Source: Caldisphaera lagunensis DSM 15908 (GTDB lineage Archaea > Thermoproteota > Thermoprotei_A > Sulfolobales > Acidilobaceae). From it: a stretch of DNA of 64,000 nt. Both the position numbers and the translations under genes were made by a program. The notes under the pieces were generated by a model. The model saw nothing but the letters and a program-made list of their open reading frames with translations, ran no database searches and was not told where the DNA came from. Location of the stretch: contig NC_019791.1 of assembly GCF_000317795.1 (NCBI RefSeq), forward strand, positions 124,001 to 188,000. Reading direction: 5' to 3'. This document shows positions 48,673 to 51,493 of the stretch, one piece after another; position 1 is the first letter of the stretch, and the number at the start of each line of letters is the position of its first letter.

Positions 48673-49809
48673 ATGATAAAAAAGGAGGTTTATAAATTAT
48701 CTTTTTCAGCGTTTTTTGCAGATTTGGGCTATCAAACGGCTGTAGTTATGTTTCCTTTAATATTTGTTATAATATTAAAAGCCCCTATATGGCTTTATGG
48801 AATTGCAGAAGCATTAAATTATGGTATAGGAAGTTTAATGGGATTAATTGGAGGAATAATGGGAGATAAATTTGGCAGAAAAAAGATGGCAGTTTTAGGA
48901 AATGGCCTCATAATAATTATTTCATTGCTCGGTTTTTCTAAAAATCTGTGGGAAGCATTACTTTTATTTATGATTCCTTGGTGGTTTAGGAACTTTAGGT
49001 CACCTATAAGGAGAGCAATGTTAACAGAAGTAACTGAAGAAAGTGAAAGATCAAAGGCTTTTGGCATACTCCATAGCTTAGACTTAGGAGGAGCAGTTTT
49101 GGCCATAACATATACAACAATATTATTATTCTTTAAGTTTCCAATACAATATTTATTATTAATAACAATGGTTCCCTTAGCAATATCAACATATCTTTTA
49201 TCAATATCTAATTCAGGAAAAAAGGTGGAGAAAAGAAAAATATCTTTTAAAAGCGATAATAAAATAATAACTTTGATAGTTATATCTACAACGTTATTTG
49301 GGTTTACACAATATAGCTTTGGATTTCCAATAATAACTACAGAATTTTTCACTCATCAGGCATATTTATCAGTTATAAGCTATGGTATTTTTCTGTCAGC
49401 ATCTTCATTATTTGGTTTTTTATTAGGTAGATTAAGGATTAACAATTTCTTTGCATTGGGATTTATAGGATATTTATTAGGATCTTTTTCTTCGCTAGGG
49501 TTTGCTCAATTCTCATCTTATGGAATAATGGCCATTTATCCGTTTTCATTTCTTCTAGGAGTTTCAATAGCCTCTACAGAAACATTCGAACCTTCCATTA
49601 TTTCCCGTTTTTCTAAATCGGAAAGCATGGGAAGTAATATGGGACTATTAACCTTTGGAAGAAGTATTGGTGTATTTTTAAGTAATATGATAATGGGACT
49701 GCTTTATGAAATTAGATATAGTTATGCTTACTATTTTTCATCAATAATGTCAATAATCGCATTCATAATAGTTTTGTATATAATTTTTAAAATGAGAATA
49801 AATAAGTGA
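48673..49809 (+). CDS. MFS transporter
   Basis: 378-residue major facilitator with about twelve helices. Motif A is good: GGIMGDKFGRKKM near residue 58. The next loop reads WWFRNFRSPIRRAMLTEV, and a short central loop (SGKKVEKRKISFKSDNK) lies near 180. The late segment FEPSIISRFSKSESMGSNMGLL matches a helix 10-11 loop. Start ATG at 48673 after GGAGAAGAAA. The substrate is unknown and no partner gene is adjacent. Confidence 0.87.
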   Translation: MIKKEVYKLSFSAFFADLGYQTAVVMFPLIFVIILKAPIWLYGIAEALNYGIGSLMGLIGGIMGDKFGRKKMAVLGNGLIIIISLLGFSKNLWEALLLFMIPWWFRNFRSPIRRAMLTEVTEESERSKAFGILHSLDLGGAVLAITYTTILLFFKFPIQYLLLITMVPLAISTYLLSISNSGKKVEKRKISFKSDNKIITLIVISTTLFGFTQYSFGFPIITTEFFTHQAYLSVISYGIFLSASSLFGFLLGRLRINNFFALGFIGYLLGSFSSLGFAQFSSYGIMAIYPFSFLLGVSIASTETFEPSIISRFSKSESMGSNMGLLTFGRSIGVFLSNMIMGLLYEIRYSYAYYFSSIMSIIAFIIVLYIIFKMRINK

Positions 49810-50140
49810 AATATGCTGCCATTTCGAACTATTATCCCATAAAGATTCTACTTAAAATATATCCATCATTTTCTTATCAAAGATGATTATACCATAATTA
49901 GTTTTTAAACAAGTCTTATATTCAAAATACCATTATTTTATATTAGTCTTCTGCTAAGTGTAACCAGTTTCCTTTAGTTTTTATATCATAACTCTGAAAT
50001 TTCTTAACAATAGAGCTATATTTTATTTTTCCCATGATAAAACAGTTCTTAATCCATCTTTCCATATACAGTAAAGAAAGTATGAGCTAATTAGAATGAA
50101 TTTTTATAAAAACTGTAACCCAACTCCTACTTTAACTAGA
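49810..50140. other. Intergenic region with a possible short minus-strand gene fragment
   Basis: 330 bases upstream of the structured RNA segment. On the minus strand an ATG at 50065 opens 40 codons (MERWIKNCFIMGKIKYSS, ending NWLHLAED) to a TAA at 49943. It looks protein-like but has no ribosome-binding site and no family I know, so I treat it as a possible remnant. Nothing else seen. Confidence 0.25.
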
Positions 50141-50454
50141 TGGGGGTTAAGGGGGCGAAAGTCCCCTTCCGTGAGGAGGGGGTGGATAGCCCCCTTATAG
50201 AAGGATTTATTATAATTCATCAATTCTGGGAAAAAAATTAGGCATTGGCTGAAAGCGCTAGGTCATACCCTAGGGACTGGGGATTAAGCCTGTGGAGAGT
50301 AAACCCTCCGTAACCCCGCTTCCGCATAGGGTATAACGGAACGGTTCCGTTCAATAGAATACTGTGTGTGTAGGGGGATCGAGGTTACTCTGAGAAGCAG
50401 GAAATCCCCATCGCGAAGTGGGGATGCCCCGTCCGCAAGGGCGGGGTAGTTCAC
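50141..50454 (+). mobile_element. Orphan IS605-type right end / omega-RNA-like structured segment without tnpB
   Basis: A G+C-rich island in an A/T-rich gap, with five strong pairings: AAGGGGGC/GCCCCCTT (50149-50156 with 50189-50196) enclosing CCCCTTCC/GGAGGGG; ATACCCTA/TAGGGTAT (50265-50272 with 50327-50334); AACGGAAC/GTTCCGTT (50335-50351); ATCCCCA/TGGGGAT (50404-50410 with 50419-50425); CCCCGTCC/GGGCGGGG (50427-50434 with 50439-50446) followed by TAGTTCAC. The last two hairpins and the tail look like the right end of archaeal IS605-type elements, which is also the guide-RNA scaffold of TnpB. One frame reads SEKQEIPIAKWGCPVRKGG, like a TnpB C-terminal tail. No TnpA or TnpB is present. Assigned from pattern memory, without a search. 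Confidence 0.55.
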
Positions 50455-50563
50455 TTATATACCAATCCCTAATAAGAAATAGAGAATATAAAAAATTTTA
50501 CTTACCCCCAATAATGGGAAATTTTTATTAAGATGTAAAAATAATAAAATAAAGGGAATAAAA

Positions 50564-51493
50564 ATGATTCAGATAGATGGTTTTATGGATAGTAATGTTC
50601 ATTTTAAATGGAGTAATAAATTAAAACCAATAGCTTATGTTAATTCTGGAGATGAATTGTTAATTAAAGTCCCAGACTCCTCAACAAAACAAATAAAATA
50701 TGATTTTAAGACAGAAGACCTATCTAAATTAGATTCAAGCAAGTTTGATGGAGCAGTTGGACCAATTTACGTATATGATGCAAAACCTGGAGATGCTTTA
50801 GAAGTAGAAATCCAAGATATTAAAGTTGATAAATGGGGATGGAGTGCAATATTAAGTGATTTTGGTATTCTTAAAAAAAGGTTTAATGAAAGATTAATAA
50901 TATGGGATATCAAAGAAAATTATGCAATAGCAAAGGATTTTTTAAGGGGGATTAAAATACCAATTAGGCCATTTTTAGGTGTAATAGGATTGTCTCCAAA
51001 AGAAGACAAAGAATATGATATGATACCTCCCCAATATTTTGGAGGTAATATGGATAATAGATTAAATGGCATAGGATCAAAAATTTATTTACCCGTTAAT
51101 GTAGAAGGTGCTTTGTTATCGATATCTGATCCCCACGCATCTCAAGGAGATGGAGAAATTTGTGGTACAGCTATTGAAACGAGTGCAGAGGTTAAATTGA
51201 AGGTCAAGGTTATAAAAGATTTAAAAATTAAGAGACCCTTCACAATTAGCCCTAACAAAGATGATTTTAAAGGAGAAGTAATAGCAGCTATGGGTATTTC
51301 AAGCGATTTATATCAAGCAGCAAAAGATGCAGTTAATGATATGATCGAACTTTTGAATAGACAATATAAATTATCATATGAAGAAGGTTATGTTTTAAGC
51401 AGTGTAATAGGTAATTTAAGGATTTCTGAAATTGTTGATGAGCCAAATTTTGTAGTTTCCCTAGTTATACCAAAATATATTTTGGAGAGTTAA
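50564..51493 (+). CDS. Acetamidase/formamidase
   Basis: 309-residue FmdA/AmdA-family amidase, cutting acetamide or formamide to ammonia and the acid. Family marks: VGPIYVYDAKPGDALEVEI near residue 65, GGNMDNRLNGIGSKIYLPVNVEGALLSISD near 160-190, then HASQGDGEICGTAIETSAEV, with the Asp, His and Glu residues expected at the metal site. Start ATG at 50564 after AAAGGGAATAAAA. It lies just 14 bases before panE, so the three genes to panB may be one transcript, although the function does not obviously belong to pantothenate synthesis. Confidence 0.9.
   Translation: MIQIDGFMDSNVHFKWSNKLKPIAYVNSGDELLIKVPDSSTKQIKYDFKTEDLSKLDSSKFDGAVGPIYVYDAKPGDALEVEIQDIKVDKWGWSAILSDFGILKKRFNERLIIWDIKENYAIAKDFLRGIKIPIRPFLGVIGLSPKEDKEYDMIPPQYFGGNMDNRLNGIGSKIYLPVNVEGALLSISDPHASQGDGEICGTAIETSAEVKLKVKVIKDLKIKRPFTISPNKDDFKGEVIAAMGISSDLYQAAKDAVNDMIELLNRQYKLSYEEGYVLSSVIGNLRISEIVDEPNFVVSLVIPKYILES

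Follow-up and report, generated by a model that had tools for sequence, protein, structure and literature searches.

A non-autonomous IS200/IS605-type element in Caldisphaera lagunensis with a probable stand-alone omega RNA as its sole cargo

Within a 64,000-nucleotide stretch of the Caldisphaera lagunensis DSM 15908 genome (hereafter, the window; NC_019791.1, positions 124,001 to 188,000), we found a non-autonomous element of the IS200/IS605 type that belongs to the SMN1/PATE kind. In the explanation we favour, at about two chances in three, its sole cargo is a stand-alone omega RNA serving TnpB in trans. Alignment of its copies and relatives delimits a 319-bp mobile element adjacent to a TTTAA motif, with hairpins at its left end (LE) and right end (RE) and, between them, a promoter-like box and then a covarying candidate RNA scaffold, both conserved, the scaffold ending at RE. 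The usual view of non-autonomous transposons is that they consist of two ends and borrow a transposase. The family described here indicates that the guide RNA of a TnpB system can be the sole cargo, under selection and separate from the tnpB-linked form, and thus that nuclease-driven homing can be borrowed too. The idea itself is not a new one, since reports from bacteria include omega RNAs that stand alone or act in trans, as well as PATEs with parts resembling omega RNAs; what appears to be new is the interior, which has the properties of a scaffold under selection for a dedicated, stand-alone omega RNA.

The element occupies positions 50136 to 50454 of the window, on the plus strand like all features given below, and ends in GTTCAC; its boundaries were set by aligning copies and by a relative's precise empty site (pARN3 versus pARN4). 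The original prediction, made from the sequence of the window, had given its extent as 50141-50454: the right end was correct, whereas the left end was not, the element being slightly larger. The hairpins, the GTTCAC end and the lack of a tnpA or tnpB open reading frame at the site, which it had also described, are all real. Directly 5' of the element, and outside it, lies the target-site motif TTTAA (50131-50135), which forms the left boundary of every copy in the genome and of most relatives. In Sulfolobus islandicus, TTTAA is the reported TAM of tnpA+tnpB elements and, by measurement, that of the archaeal nuclease SisTnpB1 (PMC10640517). The element is flanked by an MFS-type transporter gene that ends at 49809 and by an ORF that begins at 50564; no ORF of at least 60 aa was found within 50136-50454.

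A near-terminal imperfect hairpin at LE spans 50148-50197 (outer arms 50148-50155/50190-50197, inner arms 50163-50170/50175-50182), and the same LE is present in tnpA+tnpB elements. It is followed by a putative BRE/TATA-like promoter, GAAGGATTTATTATA (50200-50214), which is conserved although it adjoins an unconserved linker; the family consensus is about GAAA-C/T-GTTTTTATA, and the RNA would start about 25-30 nt downstream. As this stretch is also found at the LE of tnpA+tnpB elements, its conservation need not come from the RNA, which may now be driven by a promoter inherited from an IS. The AT-rich linker (50215-50237) is essentially unconserved, with 17-42% identity versus about 52-86% elsewhere in the RNA, and provides an internal neutral control. 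The omega-RNA-like scaffold then runs from 50238 to 50454 and comprises a 5' hairpin, P0 (50241-50264), and the stems P1 (50289-50293/50397-50401), P2 (50296-50308/50381-50391), P3 (50314-50317/50374-50377), P4 (50321-50326/50363-50368), P5 (50339-50352), P6 (50404-50425) and P7 (50427-50446). The RE hairpin and the terminal TTCAC take up 50427-50454. Similarity between copies stops at this point, and the flanking DNA at 50455-50474 (TTATATACCAATCCCTAATA) is the putative guide, which agrees with the earlier suggestion that a guide would lie just after 50454. In five genomes of the genus, the first 18 nt of this flank had no other match with at most two mismatches, and no empty site was found. 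The orthologous locus offered no clear empty site either. Among genus members with the downstream gene, the closest (G012; protein 85% identical) loses similarity to the window at about 50524, which suggests that the element is absent there, but its upstream flank does not align.

The stretch 50238-50470 folds with -99.9 kcal/mol compared with a shuffled mean of -76.1 (z -5.1; 0 of 200 shuffles were as strong), and the whole element gives a z of -5.2. RNAalifold, run on the full alignment, gave a fold reaching from LE to RE that was partly wrong; we used the fold of the window copy instead and checked it by counting pairs. In 36 stand-alone relatives, 90.8% of cells were paired, versus 40-53% when the partners were slid by 1-3 columns, and 74 double-change cells were counted versus 29.8 +/- 4.6 in shuffles. 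One P2 pair shows all six standard pair types in this set, and a smaller one (17 sequences from two genera) pointed in the same direction. A covariance model, R1, built from 15 stand-alone copies, matched the window scaffold with 197 bits.

Such folding might instead reflect single-stranded DNA structure useful in transposition, if the element were a plain MITE or PATE that is moved by TnpA in trans and carries its interior as a passenger. Ends can suffice, as illustrated by the 52-bp terminal-only PATEs known in Haloquadratum (PMC3119063) and, similarly, by two copies of about 80 bp in this genome (1001408 and 1312540), which consist of LE fused to RE only, at TTTAA. However, the central stems, for which there is no known need in IS605 transposition, are more conserved than the end hairpins: between the copies of this genome and other families, identity is 77-81% for P1/P2, 66% for the LE hairpin, 70% for the RE hairpin and 28% for the linker. 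These stems also covary across genera while the linker is free to vary, and the scaffold is homologous to the tnpB-fused RNA. We therefore consider a passenger interior unlikely, and take the interior to be not random debris but a candidate stand-alone omega-RNA scaffold under selection.

Matches to R1 were present in 28 of 197 genomes of the order, with 13 candidates scored per genome. Comparison of 82 placed matches revealed two forms of the RNA, in proportions that are not a census, since the sample was mostly drawn from the best matches and the model was built from long forms. The long form (about 160-184 nt; at least 159 nt) overlapped tnpB in 0 of the 57 loci with enough upstream sequence, one of them having a distant tnpB 412 nt off. 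In contrast, the short form (about 108-148 nt; at most 148 nt) overlapped the 3' end of tnpB in 20 of 23 loci, one of the overlaps being with a 26-aa tnpB remnant. P1, P2, P6, P7 and RE are common to both forms, and the extra P3-P5 domain is present only in the long one. Most long-form loci in which an LE can be recognised have it about 130-150 nt upstream of the RNA, the same arrangement as in the window. At the level of sequence, these comparisons define the scaffold as a dedicated long form, distinct from the shorter tnpB-fused form. Separately, the loci of one genome (G121; L112, L134, L135, L074 and L115) have a stand-alone subtype in which a similar core is preceded by a different 5' part, possibly a second stand-alone lineage.

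TnpB-tail-like coding traces had also been proposed for the locus. The homology is genuine, as the core (CCTGTGGA ... GAAGCAGGAAATCC) corresponds to the 3' end of the relatives' tnpB plus the RNA located there, which likewise ends at RE; coding is not, because frame-breaking indels and stops make the core non-coding in the element and its kin. The family-built covariance model that matched the window also detects most tnpB-fused copies (E about 1e-12 to 1e-19), whereas curated families gave only sub-threshold scores, no Rfam family reaching its gathering threshold. The outcome named in advance as a refutation of the original prediction, a covariance search lacking any resemblance to IS605 ends or omega RNAs, did not arise with the family-built model. 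RAGATH-18 (RF03064), the IS607 TnpB reRNA (PMC11061315), scored 25.8 bits against a gathering threshold of 44.9. It resembles the window RNA in the pattern of the closing helix (CCUGUGGAG...GAAGCAGGAA) and in being independent of a coding sequence, but the transposase and TAM of IS607 are not those of IS200/IS605. The family sot0042 (RF02656) scored 18.2 bits against 88, and weak matches to SNORD19, Clostridiales-2, isrB and IRE were dismissed as chance.

The P3-P5 domain, missing from the tnpB-linked form, could make the long form behave differently in TnpB. The long RNA might then act as a decoy or regulator that occupies TnpB or represses the parent element and guides no cleavage, a role we judge highly improbable given that the RE end, TTCAC, TTTAA and the exact relation between guide and empty site are all kept, as expected for guiding.

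We counted about ten complete or almost complete copies in the genome (1,546,846 bp, one contig), with about 70-90% identity to the one in the window. Every one lies immediately 3' of TTTAA and the right flank differs from copy to copy, which argues against a chance structure. Identity of the copies does not exceed about 90%, and so gives no indication that the element has moved recently in this genome. A single larger element (1272845-1274459, minus strand) shares these ends and contains tnpA and tnpB, both broken: its TnpA lacks about 37 residues, HFH has become HFR, with loss of the second His of HUH, and the catalytic Tyr of SPSYFL is gone, and its TnpB has in-frame stops. The remaining two tnpB remnants belong to another type and are disrupted as well, so that all three tnpB copies are broken, and a search with four Pfam families detected no intact TnpA or TnpB in the genome. 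Two decayed tnpB genes of another type (86909-87283 and 318230-318747) have the same in-frame stop after VVRQD; they are thus either copies of one already broken gene or cases in which the stop was tolerated.

With both partners broken, the window copy is probably dormant now, and a dead element end, one of the options in the original prediction, may describe its present condition; the reading at family level is a different one. Of its other two options, a non-autonomous element is demonstrated by a dispersed family with precise ends at TTTAA and by the filled and empty sites of pARN4 and pARN3, and a retained omega RNA used in trans is, at family level, well supported by the conserved covarying scaffold and its stand-alone form. 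That the locus is a remnant in this genome, once functional and now decaying with no present role, would fit the broken tnpA, the three disrupted tnpB copies and the degenerate state of several copies. Nevertheless, the window copy retains nearly all scaffold pairs and the strong fold given above, and decay would describe the present state of one host and not the nature of the element, so we find this explanation improbable as an account of the locus.

Related elements of 321-322 bp are found on the S. islandicus plasmids pHVE14 and pARN4 and in Acidianus tailed spindle virus. The pARN4 element is precisely absent from pARN3, which reads GAGGTTTTAA/TGAAGTTAAGAACC uninterrupted, with no target duplication. 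The empty site in pARN3 is TTTAA followed by TGAAGTTAAGAACCCATTAC, and all 30 bases that follow TTTAA there also follow the pARN4 element (30/30), so that a guide derived from the pARN4 copy would fit this site beside TTTAA. This comparison of plasmid sequences demonstrates that relatives transpose precisely, leaving the flank after RE equal to the empty site beside TTTAA, and the pair offers a ready filled/empty-site test in which the guide matches exactly. For the pHVE14 copy a search gave no empty site, and exact-pattern searches of viral contigs gave no match to the RE hairpin or core patterns. Some relatives encode an intact TnpA (HFH, SPSYFL) and a TnpB of about 400 aa with the same RE and RNA core; LE and RE are common to the window element, the tnpA+tnpB element of this genome and the tnpA+tnpB elements of the relatives. 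Named genomes scanned with the TnpB of this genome yielded two distant relatives only. Two further observations concern these elements. The pARN4 element (881-1206) lies exactly at the TTTTAATG start of a DUF1286 gene, at a junction that is uninterrupted in pARN3, and so separates the gene from its upstream neighbour. The Acidianus tailed spindle virus ORF ATSV_D57 (2654-2827), annotated as a hypothetical protein, falls wholly within the element on the opposite strand and is probably not a gene.

If the locus is indeed a vehicle for a guide RNA, a TnpA of the ISC1733 type acting in trans would excise and insert the single strand, and the RNA would be transcribed through RE into the flank. TnpB supplied in trans would bind this RNA, which would direct a cut at an empty TTTAA+flank site, whether one vacated by excision or one on a sister replicon, and repair of the cut would copy the element back (homing). 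In this scheme, RNA expression, TnpB binding and cutting are inferred. A wider proposal, for and against which we hold the balance to be about even, is that SMN1-type elements are guide-RNA-only transposons: an old lineage found across several families, also on plasmids and in viruses, which encodes a dedicated stand-alone omega RNA with an extra domain, relies in trans on TnpA and TnpB from larger relatives and so parasitises RNA-guided homing.

SMN1 and SMN2 are non-autonomous elements of Sulfolobus (Berkner & Lipps, 2007, as cited in PMC3718332 and PMC3839810); according to PMC3718332, SMN1 has 320 bp and depends on the ISC1733 transposase. Since PMC3718332 lists no MITE classes in S. islandicus genomes other than SMN1 (320 bp) and SM3A (164 bp), elimination marks the 321-bp relatives from S. 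islandicus as SMN1-like. The window element resembles SMN1 in length (319 versus 320 bp), in containing no ORF and in having no terminal inverted repeats, and the common ends are what points to an IS200/IS605-type mover such as ISC1733. This likeness is one of size, host and mover by description, the type sequence being from S. islandicus REN1H1. Unlike the RNA proposed here, SMN1 is not described as a guide RNA gene in the literature cited, and no paper joining SMN1, TnpB and Sulfolobus was present in the literature searched. PATEs of Haloquadratum have near-terminal IS605-related palindromes, no terminal inverted repeats and no target duplication, and are too short for a transposase (PMC3119063). 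The window element has all of these features, and its family shares the terminal-only versions, but PATEs are defined by their ends, whereas here the interior is a conserved RNA scaffold common across families. Finally, the omega RNA of SisTnpB1 (IS200/IS605, S. islandicus; PMC10640517) shares with the window RNA the TTTAA TAM, two hairpins near the 3' end and a guide formed by the sequence after RE. The SisTnpB1 RNAs lie at the 3' end of tnpB, whereas the RNA described here is never fused to tnpB, and it has its own promoter-like box as well as the extra P3-P5 domain.
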